Origin: Chloropicon primus
Lineage: Eukaryota > Chlorophyta > Chloropicophyceae > Chloropicales > Chloropicaceae
NCBI GenBank assembly: GCA_023205875.1
Contig: CP060769.1
Coordinates: 372,001-436,000 of the forward strand
Length of the DNA: 64,000 bases
Reading direction: 5' to 3'
The translations under genes and the position numbers were made by a program. Under the pieces are notes generated by a model, which was not told the origin of the DNA, did not search any database, and saw nothing but the letters and a program-made list of their open reading frames with translations. This document shows positions 5,336-17,835 of the stretch, piece by piece (the stretch's first letter is position 1; the number at the start of each line of letters is the position of its first letter).

Positions 5336-5821
5336 GGGCGAGAGGCTTGCGGCGAGGGCGTGCAAAGACGACGAAGGACGACTCTTTTTCTTTTTTGTTT
5401 CTTTCTTCTAACGACTAATAAAGACGGTAGTCTCTTGGCGGGGGCCAGAGACCCTTCTTCAGTAGTGTGTGTACAGTAGCAGTGTAACCATCACCCGAGA
5501 ACCAGCGGAACTTCTTGAAAGGCTTTGGCCTAGGCAAGATCTCCTTCAAATGAATTCTGGTCTCGAGTCGTCCAGTCCCTCCACCTCTTCCCCTCCTCGT
5601 GTGAGGCTGGCCATGTCCATGACCAATTCCTACTCCTACTCCTACTCCTGCTAATGATGATGATGGTCCCACAATGGACCGTTACACCCCAGCACCGCCA
5701 TCCTCGACCCCCTTGGCCCTTCCCAACTGGAATTCAAGTTCGTTCGTTTCGTTTCCCTCCTCACTCATTTGATCCTCATCAGTGTGGTAGGGCAGCCACA
5801 CACCATCCTCATCCAACATCA
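5336..5821. other. Noncoding: PCH2 3' flank
   Basis: An AATAAA-like signal lies at 5417-5422, about 80 nt after the PCH2 stop. The rest is GC-rich sequence with short open frames on both strands, none with recognisable homology. No gene is called. Confidence 0.5.
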
Positions 5822-6783
5822 CCCATTATCCATCGACCTTGGCCTCCTCCTCCTCCTCCTCCTCCTCCTCCTCCTTTCCTCATCCATCATCATCCATCGA
5901 CCTTGGCCCCCTCTTCCTCCTCCTCTTCATCACCACCATCACCCATTATCCATCGACCTTGGCCTCCTCCTCCTCCTCCTCCTCCTCTTCATCACCACCA
6001 TCACCCATCGACCTTGGCCTCCTCCTCCTCATCATCATCATCATCACCACCATCACCCATCGACCTTGGCCTCCTCTTCCTCCGTCTTGGTTTCTCCTCC
6101 TCTTCATCACCACCATCACCCATCGACCTTGGCCTCCTCCTCCTCCTCGTTTCCTCATCCATCGACCTTGGCCTCCTCCTCCTCCTCCTCCTCTTCATCA
6201 CCACCATCACCCATCGACCTTGGCCTCCTCCTCCTCCTCCTCCTCTTCATCACCACCATCACCCATCGACCTTGGCCTCCTCCTCCTCCTCCTCCTCTTC
6301 ATCACCACCATCACCCATCGACCTTGGCCTCCTCCTCCTCCTCCTCGTTTCCTCATCCATCGACCTTGGCCTCCTCCTCCTCCTCCTCATCACCACCATC
6401 ACCCATCGACCTTGGCCTCCTCCTCCTCCTCCTCCTCTTCATCACCACCATCACCCATCGACCTTGGCCTCCTCCTCCTCCTCCTCGTTTCCTCATCCAT
6501 CGACCTTGGCCTCCTCCTCCTCCTCCTCTTCATCACCACCATCACCCATCGACCTTGGCCTCCTCCTCCTCCTCCTCCTCTTCATCACCACCATCACCCA
6601 TCGACCTTGGCCTCCTCCTCCTCCTCCTCGTTTCCTCATCCATCGACCTTGGCCTCCTCCTCCTCCTCCTCCTCTTCATCACCACCATCACCCATCGACC
6701 TTGGCCTCCTCCTCCTCCTCCTCTTCATCACCACCATCACCCATCGACCTTGGCCTCCTCTTCCTCCTCCTCATCATCCGGCT
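5822..6783. repeat. 1-kb minisatellite, about 19 units of 38-66 bp
   Basis: Each unit carries CATCGACCTTGGCCTCC, then a variable (CCT)n run, then either CTTCATCACCACCATCACC or GTTTCCTCATC. Two unit types of about 52 and 38 bp alternate irregularly. All three plus-strand frames stay open, but the frame changes at every unit because unit length is not a multiple of three, and the minus strand meets TGA repeatedly. It is therefore almost surely noncoding. It ends about 180 bp from the putative 3' end of the Fanzor element. Confidence 0.9.
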
Positions 6784-6963
6784 CTTCCTTCTCTTCTTGC
6801 TGCTCTCCTCGACATCAGATCAAAAACAGCACACAGAAAAGTCACGAAAGGACGGTAGGGAAATCACAGTCAATACTGGAAGCACAAAGGCAAGTTCTCC
6901 TTTCCACTGAAAGAGAGAAACACGGGAGAACCGGCCCCTACTTACCTGTTAGTTTTCTGCAAA

Positions 6964-7020
6964 GGTCGTTTCACCGAGTTTGTAAGTTTCTCGGCAGGGT
7001 AATTCGGCCCTACCACGACC
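6964..7020 (-). ncRNA. Candidate omegaRNA scaffold of the Fanzor
   Basis: It lies 79 nt downstream of the nuclease stop codon on the same strand. On the minus strand an outer stem GGTCGT / ACGACC (7020-7015 with 6969-6964) encloses a hairpin GGTAGGG...CCCTGCC (seven pairs including one G-T, loop of eight) and a second hairpin built on CGAG...CTCG with loop AAACTTACAAA. This three-way arrangement directly 3' of a TnpB/Fanzor gene is where omegaRNA is known to sit in this family. The guide would be the sequence just beyond, below 6964. Pairing was found by eye; no energy was calculated. Confidence 0.5.
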
Positions 7021-7098
7021 ATTCCACCGTACATGAACGAATACTTCCGCCCACGCACGGCAGCCCGTACTAACAAACGTATGTGCAACCCTGAGGAG

Positions 7099-9186
7099 TT
7101 ACACACTTTTTGGTTGACGCAAGTGCTTCAGGAGGACGTTGCGTGCCCCGTTCACATCCCGACCGCACTTGAAGCCACACTTCTGGCACTTGTACACCTC
7201 TGCTCCACCCAGGTTGTCCTTGATGTGTCCGCACCTGCCACAGGTCTTGGAGGTGTACTCCTCCGTCACGATCGCCAGCTCACTGCCGTGCAAGAGCACC
7301 TTGGAAGCCAAGAACGTTCTGAACGCATAGTGCCTCAACGTCAAGAGCGTGCGAGCCGTCTTCTTCCTGATCACTCGGCGTCTCCCGTTGTTGTTCTTCT
7401 TCGCCATGTCTTGGGACTTGAACTCCGGGAGGAGGATTGTGTCGAACCTCCTGCATAGATCGTTGGCTACCTTTTTGTGAAGCTCGTTCGTCAGACCTCG
7501 AAGTTTCTCCATGCAGGCGTATTGCTGTCTCTTCAAGTCGCGGCGGTCGAGGTAAGGGAGCTTCACCTTTGGGTCTTTGCGCTCGGAAATGATCTCATCA
7601 ATCCTCCAGCAGAGGTTGAACAGCCTCGCGAAGCCTCGCTCGCCCGTGGCATACTCCCCGACGCCTTCTTGCGGCGAGTACGACGTCTGAAAGGTCCTGA
7701 CTCCCGGATCCAGGGCGACAACCTTCCGCTTGTTCTCAGGCTTCAGGGGTGGCAGGCGATCCCATGGCGTCGCGATGGGAATGTGCATGTGGAACTGCCC
7801 AAGGCGATTTCTTGTGATCTTCACGGCACCCTCGATCTTGCCCCCGGGGATCTCCTCCGTCAAGTACAGGGGCCCGCCGGCCATCTTCTCCTTGAACACC
7901 TCCAGCTTGGTCCACTTGCGTCGTTTTTTGTGCTTCGTGTCATCCTTGTGCCTCGTTCTCGGTCTTTCGATCGTCTCCACGTTCTTTAAGTCTCTTGCAT
8001 TAATTTCAATGGTCCAAGAGCTCGGTTGCTGACGTTGACGATACTTGAGAACGAAGCGGTGCCCCTTCTCCTCGCCGCGCTCCTTCATCGCTTCCTGCTT
8101 CGCGGTGTTCGAATCCCATGCCTTGATGAGACTTCGCACGGCAGCTTGTCTGATGGCACAGGGGGTTTCCTTCAGCCAAGGATGCTTCTGATTTACAAAG
8201 GCCCCGCTAACGTAGTCCCGGTCCTTGGCCACTTCGGCGCGAAATCGTCTGCCTCCAATTTGGCTCTCGAGTCTCTTCTCTCTGGCCGCGAAAAGCTCTG
8301 CCTCCTGTTTTGTCCATGGCCGTGGAGAGCATTGGATTTCTTTCAGCTCTTTCTCCAGGCCCTCAAAGACCTCAGGGCCTCGAGGTTTGGCCGTCACAAA
8401 TCTGTCCAGCAGGACGGTCCAAACCAGCGGAAAACCCTCCTTCTTGACCGCCTCCAAACACTTGTTGTATGTGAAACGCGCAGCTCCCATCCAGTTGCAA
8501 AGTGTTCTCGCCTGCTCAGGGTTCAAGCGCATCCTAAGCTTCCTCGTCCGCATCACCGTTCGCTCCGACAATAGCTTGGAGGTCTTCAGTTTCTGCTCCC
8601 TCTTCCTTTTGGCGGGCGACTGCAATGTCTCGACGGATACCACAGAATCTTCTGGAAGGTTCAAGCACGACCTCCATCCCGTCTTCGGACACTTTACCTC
8701 TACAAGTTCTCTCTTGATCGATGAGAACCAGGTCTTCTTCACGCTGTCGTCCGCCAAGCCACCCGGCTGCTTCCCTGCTTTCTTCCCCCTCTTGTTCTTC
8801 TTCTTCTTACCCTTCTTCTTGTTCTTCTTCTTGCCCTTCTTGCGAGGCTTCTTGCGAGGCTTGCCTGACGAGCTCGAACTCTCACCCGCAGAGGCGTCCG
8901 CCTCCGGCGGACGCCCCTTCCGCTTCCCCCCCCGCTTCTTGCGAGGCGTGCTCGAACCCTCACCCGCAGAGGCGGGGTCGTCCGCGATAGGAAGCAGGCA
9001 CAACGCGTAGAGCCAGGCTAAACCCTGATTCCAGAACCGACGTAACGGCTCCGTCGTCGGAGACTCCTGCCCCGACTTCGAAGCGCCCTGAGCATGACTC
9101 TCGCCAGAGTGCGACCTCCTTGTGGAACTCGTCGAGCCACTCCCCTGCTTCTCCTTTTTCTTACGGCGCTTCCCTGATCGCGCCAT
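7099..9186 (-). CDS. Fanzor RNA-guided endonuclease (eukaryotic TnpB homologue), intact
   Basis: 695 residues in one open frame, ATG at 9184-9186. Residues 1-210 are basic and disordered, with K-rich runs (RKKPRKKGKKKNKKKGKKKK near 111-130) that look like nuclear localisation signals. The TnpB-type core then begins: RTRKLRMRLNPEQARTLCNW and GAARFTYNKCLEA near 213-246. The RuvC-like nuclease is complete: D493 in ALDPGVRTF, E588 in LLPEFKSQDM, D677 in CGRDVNGARN. The target-nucleic-acid-binding zinc finger is C649-x2-C652...C667-x2-C670, preceded by YTSKTCG. Proteins of this family cut DNA under guidance of an omegaRNA encoded at the 3' end of their own gene. Codon use looks like that of its neighbours. 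The retained glutamate in LLPEF is the canonical TnpB position; whether this is group 1 or 2 needs a tree. Confidence 0.93.
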   Translation of the reverse strand: MARSGKRRKKKEKQGSGSTSSTRRSHSGESHAQGASKSGQESPTTEPLRRFWNQGLAWLYALCLLPIADDPASAGEGSSTPRKKRGGKRKGRPPEADASAGESSSSSGKPRKKPRKKGKKKNKKKGKKKKNKRGKKAGKQPGGLADDSVKKTWFSSIKRELVEVKCPKTGWRSCLNLPEDSVVSVETLQSPAKRKREQKLKTSKLLSERTVMRTRKLRMRLNPEQARTLCNWMGAARFTYNKCLEAVKKEGFPLVWTVLLDRFVTAKPRGPEVFEGLEKELKEIQCSPRPWTKQEAELFAAREKRLESQIGGRRFRAEVAKDRDYVSGAFVNQKHPWLKETPCAIRQAAVRSLIKAWDSNTAKQEAMKERGEEKGHRFVLKYRQRQQPSSWTIEINARDLKNVETIERPRTRHKDDTKHKKRRKWTKLEVFKEKMAGGPLYLTEEIPGGKIEGAVKITRNRLGQFHMHIPIATPWDRLPPLKPENKRKVVALDPGVRTFQTSYSPQEGVGEYATGERGFARLFNLCWRIDEIISERKDPKVKLPYLDRRDLKRQQYACMEKLRGLTNELHKKVANDLCRRFDTILLPEFKSQDMAKKNNNGRRRVIRKKTARTLLTLRHYAFRTFLASKVLLHGSELAIVTEEYTSKTCGRCGHIKDNLGGAEVYKCQKCGFKCGRDVNGARNVLLKHLRQPKSV

Positions 9187-9697
9187 GACCGGTAGGGTTT
9201 CACTCGCTGCCCTCCTCGTAACTCCTCGTAACTATAGATTTGCCTTGTCCAGCAAGTGAGAACACGAAAAAAACGCTTAGTGGGTTGTCCTTTGGGTGTG
9301 ACCAAACTGGTATACACTGGAATCCCACCAACAGGGGAAAACCTCCAACAGATCGTCCTATCGTCCCATTGGGTGGCTTATCCAGATTTCAGGATAAGGA
9401 TGAATCGATCCTCGTGGTCGTCAGAGATTCACAACAACCAGAGAGAGATCTTCGAAACCCAAACCCAAAACAAACCCCAGCGACAACGAAAAGGTGAGGG
9501 CAAGGGCGACTGCGAACAAGGGAACGACATCGGCATCGGCATCCTTCCCCTCTCTCCCTTTCGAACGACACCGCTCTCCAACGAAATGGTGGAGAGGACG
9601 CCATTTTATCCATATATCATCATCATCAATAACAACACCATGGACCTGACTGACTCTCTCTTTCTTTCTCTCGATTGTGTTCTTTTCTTTTTTGCAG
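9187..9697. other. Head-to-head region between Fanzor and plastocyanin
   Basis: No gene is seen. A likely 5'-UTR intron of the plastocyanin gene runs from 9494 (AAAG|GTGAGG) to 9697 (TTTTTTGCAG), so its first exon is noncoding. The left part, near 9187-9400, may hold the upstream end of the Fanzor element, but no boundary is visible. Confidence 0.5.
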
Positions 9698-10138
9698 ATG
9701 ATGAAGAGCGCGATGATGAAGAGGAACGTTGCCACGACGATGAAGGCGAGCGGCAACGTGCCAAAGGCCACCTTTGTCAGGAAGGTTGCCCAGACGGCTG
9801 GCATTGCTGCCTCCACCCTTGCTCTGACCTTGAGCGCCAACGCTGCTGAGGTGAAGCTCGGAACCGATTCCGGTGGACTCCAGTTCGTTCCGTCTTCCGT
9901 GACCATCAAGAAGGGAGACTCCGTGACCTGGAAGAACAACGCCGGGTTCCCTCACAACGTCGTCTTCGACGAGGACGAGTGCCCATCCGGAGTCGACGTG
10001 GACAAGCTCTCGAACGAGGACTACTTGAACGCTCCAGGTGAGACCGTCACCAGGACCTTCAATGTCGCCGGGGAGTACAACTACTACTGCGAGCCACACC
10101 AGGGCGCTGGCATGGCCGGAAAGATCATCGTCCAGTAA
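9698..10138 (+). CDS. PETE: Plastocyanin precursor
   Basis: 146 residues; the coding sequence starts right after an acceptor (TTTTTTGCAG|ATG). The mature protein begins at AEVKLG (about residue 50) after a lumen-targeting stretch ending LTLSANA, leaving about 97 residues, the usual length. All copper ligands are present: H86 (GFPHN), C131, H134 and M139 in YYCEPHQGAGMAG. FDEDECPSG and SNEDYLNAPGE are of the green-plant and green-alga type. It carries electrons from cytochrome b6f to photosystem I in the thylakoid lumen. The first 30 residues are basic and Ser/Thr/Ala-rich, like a stromal transit peptide. I see no ER signal peptide before it, which argues for a primary plastid unless an upstream coding exon is missed. 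Confidence 0.93.
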   Translation: MMKSAMMKRNVATTMKASGNVPKATFVRKVAQTAGIAASTLALTLSANAAEVKLGTDSGGLQFVPSSVTIKKGDSVTWKNNAGFPHNVVFDEDECPSGVDVDKLSNEDYLNAPGETVTRTFNVAGEYNYYCEPHQGAGMAGKIIVQ

Positions 10139-13431: not shown

Positions 13432-15144
13432 CTCGCTTGCTTTGCTTACTCCTCTGCCCTTACTCGCCCTTGGCTCTTCTGTGCTCGGTTCACGGATACC
13501 AGCAACGTGTCGCCTGTTGCAGTGAGCGAGAGTTGAACCTCCTTCCTCTCTGTTCCGTCGTCACACCGCGCCGCTCACACACAACACAAACACAAACACA
13601 CACAAGCTACTCACCACCTCTCTCTCCCTGTCTCTGGAGGAAGAGAAAAAGAAAAAGAGGAGGATTTTTTTGTGGAAAGCGGAGGCGACGAAAGCGTCGT
13701 GGTGGCAAGAGAGCGCGCCGGAGTCAATGGTCCCCGAAGGTGAGCACCAAGTCCCTCTCCTCTCCTCTCCTCTCCTTACTCTCTTCTCTTCGCCCCTTGA
13801 CGGCTTTTTGTGTTTTTTGAGTGGCGTCTGTCGATCGATCGAAGGAACAGGAGGAAGAGAGAGAGCATGCACAGGATGAATGGGCGTCACCATCATCATC
13901 ATCCGCCCCTCGTGTCTACCATCCAGCATCATGCTTGGTTGCTTGATTGCTTTCTTTGTCTCTCTCTCTCTCTCTCTTTCTTTCTTTGTCTCGTTTTCCT
14001 GGAGGAGGGGAGCCTTGCAGGCTGCAGGAACTTGGTGCCAACAAGCGTCGACGATCTCGCTCGAGGGGAGACAGAGAGGGACTCCGTGATGGTGGATGAT
14101 CTTGGTGGGGGAGCAGAACACGCTCTCTCCTTCTCTTTCTCTCTCTTCTCTCGCTTCTTGGTTACCATGGACCTTCATCTCAGATCAGAATGTCATGGGT
14201 GATGGACCGCCGTATGGGACAGAGAAAGGAAGGGAGGAAGAGACAAGGTCTTGATGGCGAAGAAGGGACTGCAAGACCCCGACGCTCCATTCCTCTCGAC
14301 CCTCCACCCTCACTGCAATGGACCACCTTCAGATCAGAATCAGAATCAGAATCAGAATGATCAGCAAAATGATTTGGATGATCACCCGTCCTCTCTCCAG
14401 ACAGGCAGAGAAGGGATTGGTGGTAACGGTGCAGGGGAGACCGCAAGGCCCCGACGCTCCATTCCTCTCGACCCTCCACCCTCACTGCGATGGACCACCT
14501 TCAGATCAGAATCAGAATCAGAATCAGAATGATCAGCAAAATGATTTGGATGATCACCCGTCCTCTCTCCAGACAGGCAGAGAAGGGATTGGTGGTAACG
14601 GTGCAGGGGAGACCGCAAGGCCCCGACGCTCCATTCCTCTCGACCCTCCGTCCCCTCCCTCCTCCTCTCCAACCATTCTCTCTCTCTCTCTCTCTCTCTC
14701 TCGGAAAGATCAGATCACGATCTTTGATTTTTTTCTCTGGACCGTCCAACTCACGCCGAGTCATTGTGTGGTGCAGAATCAATCCACAGGAGGAGACGCA
14801 GTGACTGTAAGTGAATCGCGGCCACGGGAGAGGAAGGGAACAAAGGGAGGGCGACAGGAACACAAACAGGTGAATCCGTCATCGCGAGACCTTTCCATCG
14901 AACCCAAACACGAAGAAAACCAACCACTGTGGACCATGCTCCATTGTTTTGGAAAGGATTTTGATCATGATCATCTTGATGTTGTTGGGCTGACAGCATC
15001 TCTCTCTCTGTCTCTCTCTGTGTCTCTCTGTCTCTCTGTCTGTCAGTCTGCTCCTTTGTTTTGGTCGTTACCCGTCATCGGTACCAGCGTCCTCCTCGCT
15101 TCCACCTTCATCTTGGAAGTCAAGTCTCATCGACGACCACACGG
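13432..15144. repeat. Long noncoding stretch with a 172-bp tandem repeat
   Basis: Two full copies and one partial copy of a 172-bp unit lie at about 14273-14650 (14273, 14445 and a partial from 14617). Each contains an (ATCAGA)n-like run and the words TGATCAGCAAAATGATTTGG. CT microsatellites occur near 13957, 14676 and 15001. Good 5' splice sites near 14803 (ACT|GTAAGT) and an acceptor near 15045 suggest 5'-UTR introns of the branching-enzyme gene. I see no convincing gene. Confidence 0.7.
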
Positions 15145-17835
15145 ATGCGTTGGGGCAGCGCCGTGATGGAAAGGGCGATGACACGGAGGGTCTCGGGTGC
15201 GAGGTTGACGAAGGTTCGTGCGAAGCCGTCGGCGGCGAGGTGTTTGCGCCATGCCTCCGCTGCTGGGTCTTTGGCGGCGCCGGTCACCACTCGACCTTCC
15301 TCTTCGTCGCCATCGTCATCCACTTCGTCAGGCTCCAGGGTCTCGAACAGGAGGCAGGGTGGTGCGGCGTGCAGGGCCAAGGCGGAGGAGCCCGAGATCG
15401 CGCCGCTGGAGATGCTGAAGAAGGAGAACGAGCTGCTGAGGAAGGCGATCGAGTCGGCGGATGACTCCGTGACGGAGCTCGAGGAGGAGCTCGACGCCGC
15501 GGGCGTTTCCTTCGAGCCGGCCTCCTCCGAGGAGAGCAGCAGCGGGGCCGAGGGGCCTGTGGCTGAGGCCGTGGGGAGCGCCTGGTCCCCGACCCAAGTC
15601 CAGCCTGAGGGCCACGCCATGGAGGAGAGCTACGGGAAGCCAGGGATTCCGGAGGGCGACGGCACGGAGTGCCTCAGGTTCGACCCAACGCTGTGGTCCC
15701 ACGCGGACCACATCAAGGAGAGGTACGGGCGGTACCGCAGCGTGAGGCACGCCATCGACGAGAACGAGGGCGGCCTCGAAGCCTTCTCCCAGGGTTACAA
15801 GCACTTCGGGTTCAACAGAGGAGAGCACGAGGGCGAGCAGGGGATCTGGTACAGGGAGTGGGCTCCGTCCGCAAAGGCTTTGGCCCTCGTCGGGGACTTC
15901 AATGATTGGGACCCGAAACCGGAGCACTGGGCGTTCAAAAACCCTTTTGGCGTGTGGGAGCTCTTCCTTCCCGACGACGACGAGGGAAAGAGCGCGATTG
16001 AGCACAGGTCGAGGGTGAAGTGCAGGCTGGAGGCGGAGAGCGGAGAGTGGTGCGAGCGGATCCCCGCTTGGATCAAGTGGGCGACCCAAGCTTGGGACGA
16101 GGTGCAATTCAACGGGTGTTACTGGGAGCCGGAAGGAAAGAGCGAGCCTGGCGTCTTCGAGGAGGACAAGAAGTACCAGTTCAAGTACAACAGGCCCAAG
16201 AAGCCGAGCAACTTGAGGATCTACGAGTGCCACGTGGGCATGTCCAGCCAGGAGCCGAAGGTCAATTCCTATCTTGAGTTCAAGGACGACATGCTGCCAA
16301 GGATCAGGGACTTGGGTTACAACGCCATCCAGATCATGGCCGTCCAGGAGCATGCCTACTACGGGAGTTTTGGCTACCACGTCACAAACTTTTTCGGCGT
16401 GTCCTCGAGGTCGGGAACCCCGGAGGAGCTCAAGGCGATGATCGACGAGGCGCACAGGCTGGGACTGTTTGTGCTGATCGACGTCGTCCACTCTCACGCG
16501 TCTAGCAACTCCAACGACGGGATCAACCTCTTTGACGGGTCCGATGGCCAGTACTTTCACTCCGGGGCCAAGGGGTACCACTGGATGTGGGACAGCAGGC
16601 TCTTCAACTACGGGAACTGGGAGGTTCTCAGGTTTCTGCTCTCCAACTGCAGGTGGTGGCTCGACGAGTACAAATTCGATGGCTTCAGGTTTGACGGGGT
16701 CACCAGCATGATGTACCATCACCACGGGCTTCAGATGGCGTTCACCGGGAACTACGACGAGTACTTCGGAATGCAGACTGACTTGGATTCGGTCGTTTAC
16801 CTCATGCTCGCGAATGACATGATCCACAGCATCTTCCCCAACGCGGTGACGATCGGCGAGGATGTCTCTGGCATGCCGACTTTCTGCAGGCCCGTGCAGG
16901 AGGGAGGCGTGGGTTTTGACTACAGGCTGCAGATGGCGATCGCTGACAAGTGGATCGATATCTTGGAGACTTCGGGAGGGGACGAGAACTGGTCCATGGG
17001 AGACATTTGCCACACCCTGACGAACAGGAGGTACGGGGAAGCCTGCATCGGTTATGCCGAGTCCCACGACCAGGCCCTGGTCGGCGACAAGACCATCGCT
17101 TTTTGGCTCATGGACGCCGAGATGTATTACGGAATGGAAGCGGACTCCAGCAACGACGTCGTCAGCAGGGGCATTGCCCTGCACAAGATGATCAGGACCA
17201 TCACGTCAGCCCTTGGCGGCGAGGGGTACCTGAATTTCATGGGCAACGAGTTTGGCCACCCGGAGTGGATCGACTTTCCGAGGGATGACACGTACGACAC
17301 CTCCACGGGAGAGTTCATTCCAGGCAACGGGGGATCCCACGACAAGTGCAGGAGAAGGTGGGATCTCGCGGATGCCGAGTCCCTCAAGTACAAGTACATG
17401 AACTCTTACGACAGGGCCCTGATGCATTTGGACAAAGCGTTCGGATTTGTCAACGCTCCTCACACCTACATCTCCCGCAAGGACGAGATGGACAAGCTGG
17501 TCGTGTTCGAGAAGGGGGATCTGGTTTTCGTTCTCAACTTCCATCCTTGCAACTCGTACACCGATTACAGGGTGGGGTGCTTCAAGCCCGGGACCTACAA
17601 GATCGCCCTGAGCTCTGACGAGGGCGTCTTTGGCGGCTGGAGTAACGCCAGCAAGTGGAACAACGCCGAGTTCCACACCCAAGACGGCGACTATGACAAC
17701 AGGCCTTGCAGCATGCAAATCTACGCTCCGAGCAGAACCGCTGTGGTCTACGCTCCGGCGGACTGGTGCGACAGCGAGAACGAGAGCGTCCCAGGTTTGG
17801 GGGTGAAGGGCGTGGGTCCGTACTATTCCTACTAG
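15145..17835 (+). CDS. 1,4-alpha-glucan (starch) branching enzyme
   Basis: 896 residues in one exon. Residues 1-75 are Arg/Ser/Ala-rich like a transit peptide. Residues 85-115 form a short coiled coil ([16 protein letters not shown]). A CBM48-type domain follows ([20 protein letters not shown]) and then the GH13 barrel. The catalytic set is complete: nucleophile D517 in [17 protein letters not shown], acid/base E572 in [12 protein letters not shown], and D642 in [14 protein letters not shown]. The sequence follows plant SBE class II almost without gaps, to RTAVVYAPA near the end. It makes alpha-1,6 branches in starch. TGTAA lies 68 nt after the stop. No hydrophobic signal peptide is visible. 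Start 15145 is the first in-frame ATG. Confidence 0.95.

Follow-up and report, generated by a model that had tools for sequence, protein, structure and literature searches.

The window analyzed here, a 64,000-nucleotide stretch of the Chloropicon primus genome, contains a gene that the initial annotation described as an intact Fanzor nuclease that may be either immobile and kept for host use or mobilized in trans. The locus raises the question of which of these it is and, if the gene is mobile, how its nuclease would obtain a guide RNA.

We found that the 695-residue frame is uninterrupted, as first described; its strand, which had been left unstated, is minus (Table 1). The protein matched the Pfam domains Cas12f1-like_TNB (4e-18) and HTH_OrfB_IS605 (4e-7) and the NCBIfam model guided_TnpB at 3.1e-25, yet at 89.2 of 100 bits it lies under the cut-off of that model. 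Among solved structures, mimivirus Fanzor2 (the TnpB-like protein L79, PDB 9b0l) was the best match both by sequence (1.3e-19 in the PDB search) and by fold (5.5e-16, the top Foldseek match of an AlphaFold2 model), with about 19% identity in the fold alignment. The match of the same model to Fanzor1 (SpuFz1, PDB 8gkh), likewise an RNA-guided eukaryotic TnpB relative and one found in varied transposons, was much weaker (rank 50, 2.5e-5). This model has modest confidence (mean pLDDT, 58, with 278 of 695 residues reaching 70), so we did not read the active-site geometry from it.

In a 32-row alignment of relatives, D493, P494, G495, E642, R676, and D677 are invariant. D493-P494-G495 is the DPG motif in RuvC-I that belongs to the Fanzor fingerprint of Yoon et al. 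(NAR 2023, PMC10711439), and C649, C652, C667, and C670 make up the C4 zinc finger between RuvC-II and RuvC-III. The fingerprint also has a glutamate at an alternative position, located six residues before the zinc finger; by our reading this is E642, with E643 present too. E642 is Glu in all 32 rows, aligns with a Glu of mimivirus L79, and corresponds to the Ealt position of Yoon et al. (PMC10711439). In column 588, by comparison, only the window protein has E, and the other rows have T (25), K (3), S (2), or A (1). Of the RuvC residues first assigned, D493, E588, and D677, the two aspartates are thus borne out; because E642 is conserved in every row and lies at the Ealt position, E588 is very probably not the middle catalytic residue, and the earlier choice of it was very probably wrong. 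The zinc finger and the Lys-rich N terminus that had been pointed out are both there. The latter (residues ~46 to 118) differs in length among genomic copies by repeat number, which gives proteins of 695 to 724 amino acids, and the window copy encodes the shortest of the 19 with intact frames. The Pfam, PDB, and Foldseek matches, together with the DPG motif and E642 in 32 of 32 rows, uphold the original identification as a Fanzor. By motif and fold, the window protein is probably a Fanzor2, a predicted RNA-guided nuclease.

Table 1. Features of the Fanzor element copy in the window (positions are those of the window)
Feature	Position	Strand	Basis or detail
Fanzor element copy	6811..9350	-	5' end TGTTGGAGG at 9350; 3' cut at GATGTC (6811); 20-copy comparison
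Fanzor2 coding sequence, 695 codons + stop	7099..9186	-	ORF, Pfam, PDB match, 32-row alignment
Candidate guide-RNA scaffold, 153 nt, stop codon to splice donor	6946..7098	-	Conservation, fold, older relatives
GUUAGU, first strand of long-range (pseudoknot-like) helix	7069..7074	-	Scaffold alignment
ACUAAC, second strand, scaffold 3' end	6948..6953	-	Scaffold alignment
Splice-donor-like GTAAGT directly after CAG	6940..6945	-	Copies compared
AG of internal acceptor-like site CTCTCTTTCAG	6907..6908	-	Sequence, copies compared
AG-free, T-rich 3' stretch, shortened here (79 nt in complete copies)	6811..6875	-	Sequence
Next AG past cut end of window copy	6808..6809	-	Sequence

We searched the genome (17,584,162 bases in 20 contigs) with the Fanzor protein and obtained 86 matching stretches. 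Twenty full-length copies were taken from the top of the match list, a sample that favors intact ones. All of these except L022 have an intact frame (695 to 724 codons); further copies outside the 20 carry stops or frame shifts. The 5' end is exactly the one given in Table 1 in 16 of the 20 copies, is altered or shortened in L022, L030, and L035, and is a different one in L019. The complete 3' end, ...TGAACAYCATAACA, is found in 11 copies and is cut or altered in the other nine, including the window copy. Complete copies begin and end with TGTT...AACA, a 4-bp inverted repeat only. Across the genome, 28 places match the 23-nt 5' end, 27 of them exactly and three of them being short derivatives, and 27 places match the 20-nt 3' end with at most three mismatches (18 exact), one of which, C1:1706092 with three mismatches, may be chance. 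The search for further copies that had been proposed for this locus returned about 30 in the genome that share the scaffold described below.

Exact 5-bp target duplications flank 17 of the 21 copies with both ends, versus 5 of 420 mismatched pairs, and 16 of 19 when the two short derivatives in that set are removed. The copies with no exact duplication are L018, L040 (a derivative), C11:24530, and C15:398523, the last being ambiguous in register. The 19 coding sequences are 97.3 to 99.3% alike, with mean pS and pN values of 0.0251 and 0.0156; the ratio, which is 0.62 for the whole sequence and 0.54 for the core, is weak evidence of purifying selection on the protein. Of 11 frames that span insertion sites, 9 are under the random median of 504 codons, but L032 lies inside a frame of 1183 codons. 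Judged from these copies, the window gene almost certainly belongs to a mobile Fanzor2 carried by a recently amplified DNA transposon. An immobile gene maintained for host use would agree with the intact frame, with the weak purifying selection across copies, and with the cut 3' end of the window copy; against it stand the ~30 copies, most of the complete ones having target duplications, and we consider it highly improbable. The suggestion of immobility may hold for the window copy alone because its 3' end is cut. That copy lacks the final 14 nt (TGAACACCATAACA), through which complete copies run on to AACA, and it has no matching target duplication; its frame is intact, but the element is not. 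Mobilization in trans is possible.

Four short derivatives, L038 to L041 (C1:1611 kb, C4:429 kb, C2:1220 kb, and C5:348 kb), consist of element ends without the gene or the scaffold. They retain the first ~70 to 117 nt and segments from the last ~115 nt. A 5-bp duplication (AGTGG) is present at L038, and L040 has none. Since these derivatives keep the 3' part without the scaffold, that part also has a different role.

Between its ends, the element has no long frame other than the Fanzor on that strand, and the enzyme that inserts the family is not encoded by it. The ORF lists of the 64-kb window likewise show no transposase beside the frame, as the initial annotation had said. Among the transposase searches of the genome, two had a working control: rve integrase (PF00665; control detected in 6 of 14) and MULE (PF10551) gave no match. 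The hAT search (PF05699) was uninformative, its control being detected nowhere. We rejected an LTR-type origin, which the TG...CA ends and 5-bp duplications had brought up, because the retroviral-type integrase rve was unmatched in the genome. Paired Fanzor fragments on C16 proved to be part of a 1769-bp duplication with no LTR layout. Nor is the family an IS607 element, as there is no serine-recombinase gene between its ends and target duplications are present. The serine recombinase that had been proposed as a search target does occur in the genome, with PF00239 at four places, but in a different family. Those four places, L069 to L072 (C2:316 kb, C3:1405 kb, C9:638 kb, and C16:69 kb), encode a 986-amino-acid protein whose Resolvase domain matches in two stretches (4.2e-10); the copies are ~98 to 99% alike over some 3.1 to 3.3 kb and are another mobile family. 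A Fanzor cut is expected well downstream of the TAM, and on this reasoning we set aside Fanzor cleavage as the source of the 5-bp duplication.

Yoon et al. reported that C. primus Fanzor2s are carried by cut-and-paste transposons that show both degenerate inverted repeats and target duplications, and they named such cases Fanzor2* (PMC10711439). The family described here has target duplications and inverted repeats and is a non-IS607 transposon, the combination that defines Fanzor2*, and it is very probably that same family. The initial annotation could name no Fanzor from a genome with this gene set; because the C. primus Fanzor2s were reported in 2023, the earlier finding is not new. What we consider new here is a near-invariant folded stretch of 153 nt, a donor at its end, and the proposed spliced guide. 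In the main-text passages considered here, Yoon et al. describe no splice donor, older GG-ending relatives, or CAG motif for Fanzor2* (PMC10711439). A literature search of titles and abstract openings, outside subscription journals and bioRxiv-only preprints, found no description of a spliced Fanzor guide.

The conserved folded stretch would be the guide-RNA scaffold. Between the stop codon and ...GCAGAAAACTAACAG, 1 of 153 sites is variable in the 11 complete copies (mean pairwise difference, 0.0036), compared to 4 of 90 beyond the internal acceptor (0.0182); this difference is not significant alone (Fisher P = 0.064). We discarded a downstream value of 13 of 68 because it was inflated by copies with cut 3' ends. 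Among all 20 copies, 2 of 152 scaffold sites vary, plus a 5-nt indel, and by a rough comparison the scaffold is less variable than the coding sequence, in which 19 copies show 127 variants over 2043 nt (P = 0.011). The fold of positions 6945 to 7101 has a z score of -3.44, and 2 of 200 shuffles were as good. In 10 aligned scaffolds, all 111 counted cells are paired in the 5' hairpin and the GUUAGU/ACUAAC helix; most of the hairpin is missing from L043, and part of the helix from L181. Two sequences have G-C in place of A-U at one hairpin pair. Since at least as many changed pairs arise in 194 of 500 shuffles, the covariation of the scaffold is weak. There is effectively no sequence similarity to the scaffolds of relatives, with a single blastn match at an E value of 3.6.

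The 3' boundary of the scaffold can be placed by comparison with relatives. In eight older relatives in the same genome (L177 to L183 and L037, the last being two identical copies), similarity stops right after ACTAAC-GG, with the variants ACTAGC-GG in L178 and ACTAAC-AGG in L182, and differing DNA follows. Their match to the Fanzor protein is confined to its final part, starting at residue 589 or beyond. All are 3' pieces whose starts vary but whose scaffold end is intact, and they may be truncated insertions or retained guide RNAs. A rearranged piece, L184, reads ACTAAC-GG and then GTAAGTAGTGG, which places it between the two states. The genome seems to hold both of these, namely, old fragments with the scaffold right against the flank and a young family that has a donor at the same base. 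A solo scaffold without a gene, L043 (C3:455267-455417), is 91% alike and is followed by GTATGAAG and unrelated DNA; it is possibly a stand-alone guide RNA.

Cyanobacterial IS607 elements with pro-Fanzor TnpBs, which share the DPG motif and Ealt with the algal protein, also have a scaffold end made of a pseudoknot strand plus NG, as in the algal family. By copy comparison, their right ends are ...TATCAG in Arthrospira, Oscillatoria, Prochloron, and Laspinema, with the copy match extending 1 to 4 nt further in a few rows; the right end is ...CTATCGG in a phage group and lies near ...TATCTG and ...CATCCG in two others. The five nucleotides before the final two have a hairpin-loop partner in 52 of 55 distinct upstream sequences, versus 4.8% of random 5-mers; these 55 sequences are related, and loci with ends off the pattern were excluded. 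This pairing of the terminal strand agrees with Yoon et al., according to whom a pseudoknot is necessary in ISXfa1 (PMC10711439). By position, the algal scaffold probably ends after ACUAAC-AG, and the guide should begin there. Unlike the algal family, the cyanobacterial elements end at the scaffold, with host DNA directly next to it. They also differ in having a serine-recombinase signature nearby, found by regular expression in 38 of 56 loci, whereas the algal element has no such gene.

Directly at the proposed boundary lies a sequence that resembles a splice donor. AAACTAACAGGTAAG is present without mismatch at 30 copies genome-wide, and the solo scaffold L043 has GTATG. GTAAGT was found in 27 of the 27 copies read, so that the amplified family has CAG/GTAAGT at the last base of the scaffold. 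A segment of variable length follows on the 3' side, then CTTTCAG in most copies, and then the T-rich stretch without AG to the element end (shuffle P = 0.048, which is marginal). Counted from the element end, the next AG lies between -1 and +4 at 18 of 23 complete 3' ends (P = 1.2e-4). The same holds for 9 of 12 cut ends (P = 0.012), among which L019 and L041 have one end in common. The expected share is 38.5%, and this interval was picked after the data were seen. The target duplication usually supplies that AG. In the empty site, CAG stands immediately before the predicted guide start at 16 of 17 duplication sites, the evaluation covering all except C11:4203, whereas C precedes the first AG after random flank positions in 28.4% of cases (669 of 2354). 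The whole element as a host-gene intron was also considered and was set aside, since its left end has no good donor.

Taken together, these data lead us to a reading in which an amplified Fanzor2 transposon has its scaffold after the stop codon and its guide joined by splicing; we give it a probability of about 0.42. According to this model, the ancestral IS607-like element would have ended at the scaffold, and the adjoining host DNA would have been the guide. Capture of this IS607-type Fanzor2 by a TGTT...AACA transposon would have put ~130 to 180 nt of added 3' sequence between the scaffold and host DNA in the amplified family, and the donor would later have restored contact with the flank. 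Splicing from the donor to the next AG past the element would then join the scaffold to the flank as one scaffold-guide RNA; in the window copy, the predicted guide would begin at 6807. In the empty allele, the target of such a guide would immediately follow CAG, which is the predicted TAM. The Fanzor would cleave that allele, and repair would copy the element back. A spliced guide RNA is thus our tentative proposal. That the host spliceosome attaches the guide, with the donor at the last base of the scaffold, an acceptor AG from host DNA, and the empty-site CAG as the target motif, is conceivable, if quite uncertain. Several observations count against it. At the eight sites with the same register, the filled site is AAG, a weaker acceptor. 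The short derivatives keep the 3' part while lacking the scaffold. The internal CTTTCAG, which in most copies is nearer the donor, might serve as the acceptor in its place.

Use of that internal acceptor would produce the same guide (UGGAAAGG...) for every copy or leave an RNA that ends in the intron-like segment, the guide being fixed in either case. The presence of CTTTCAG near the donor in most of the fetched copies speaks for it. We judge it improbable: the distance from donor to acceptor is only 24 to 34 nt in L015, L033, L036, and the C11 and C15 copies, a short intron, and a fixed guide would match the element itself. An unspliced guide RNA of the kind that Yoon et al. predict for Fanzor2* would run from the scaffold through the 3' end and the duplication, as extra scaffold, into the flank, and the donor would go unused. 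The terminal inverted repeat and target duplication are predicted to lie in the scaffold of Fanzor1s and apparently likewise count as scaffold in Fanzor2*s (PMC10711439), and the 3' end is common to nearly all complete copies here. It is nevertheless unlikely, given that the conserved fold and pseudoknot strand stop ~130 to 180 nt short of host DNA, that the older relatives end at the scaffold boundary, and that the intervening segment varies in both length and sequence.

A serious rival concerns the CAG, which could be a target preference of the transposase only, with the donor-like sequence due to chance or to mRNA splicing and a guide as in other Fanzors. Such a preference explains equally well the eight of the 16 sites that share one register, where the C is often within the left flank, and it fits the occurrence of CAG in 14 of 17 site cores. 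The remaining sites do not keep this register: the AG is at distance 0 from the element end at eight sites, at 2 for three sites, at 3 for two, and at -1, 7, and 15 for one site each. The motif is also strand specific (CTG is found in 1 of 17 cores), which is unusual for an enzyme that treats both ends alike. Moreover, cut 3' ends without duplications also abut an AG, in the 9 of 12 cases given above. On balance, we find a transposase preference alone doubtful as the explanation.

The nuclease-core tree places the algal Fanzor, on a long branch, as the sister of the cyanobacterial pro-Fanzors (support, 93/85). A broad tree, which carries a long-branch warning, disagrees with this and places it across the drawn root among viral-contig rows. 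In the core tree, mimivirus Fanzor2 falls with the outgroup of IS607 TnpBs, and it groups with the algal protein in neither tree; both trees were built without a curated Fanzor1 row. A pattern scan of genome contigs gave 138 confirmed loci, the best 80 of which are all cyanobacterial by title, a result biased by patterns taken from a two-row alignment that included a cyanobacterial row. For viruses, a first scan of viral contigs confirmed no close relatives; a second scan with an alignment found 15 loci, and both of those inspected for neighboring genes (L081 and L083) look phage-like by reading.

How Fanzors spread from IS607 into many eukaryotic transposons without losing their guides is a question raised by Yoon et al. 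(PMC10711439). A spliced guide, if true, would account for an IS607-type Fanzor2 that keeps a locus-specific guide after being captured by a transposon whose 3' end is foreign, and splicing would be a way of making guide RNAs. IStrons, which combine a group I intron with an insertion sequence (PMC4227781), are similar in that a transposon unites mobility with RNA splicing. They differ in that their self-splicing intron removes the element from host RNA, whereas in the algal proposal spliceosomal splicing would build the guide. The copies would also be natural guide-target pairs with a predicted TAM, in which the scaffold end ...GCAGAAAACUAACAG would join the host flank. C. primus can be cultured, so the idea is testable by ordinary RNA sequencing.

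The genome contains a second, distant TnpB/Fanzor family of ~680 to 690 codons (L065 to L068, at C5:154 kb, C5:821 kb, C2:358 kb, and C13:73 kb), which has a DPG motif and a TNB domain (6.4e-7) and looks like Fanzor1. Its four places look like two insertions, each duplicated with its flanks. In the window, a minisatellite with units of ~50 bp (CATCGACCTTGGCCTCCTCC...) occupies positions 5791 to 6793 and starts ~18 bp past the cut 3' end of the Fanzor element. By reading of their translations, the frame at 15061 to 17835 suggests a starch-branching enzyme and that at 9677 to 10138 suggests a plastocyanin.
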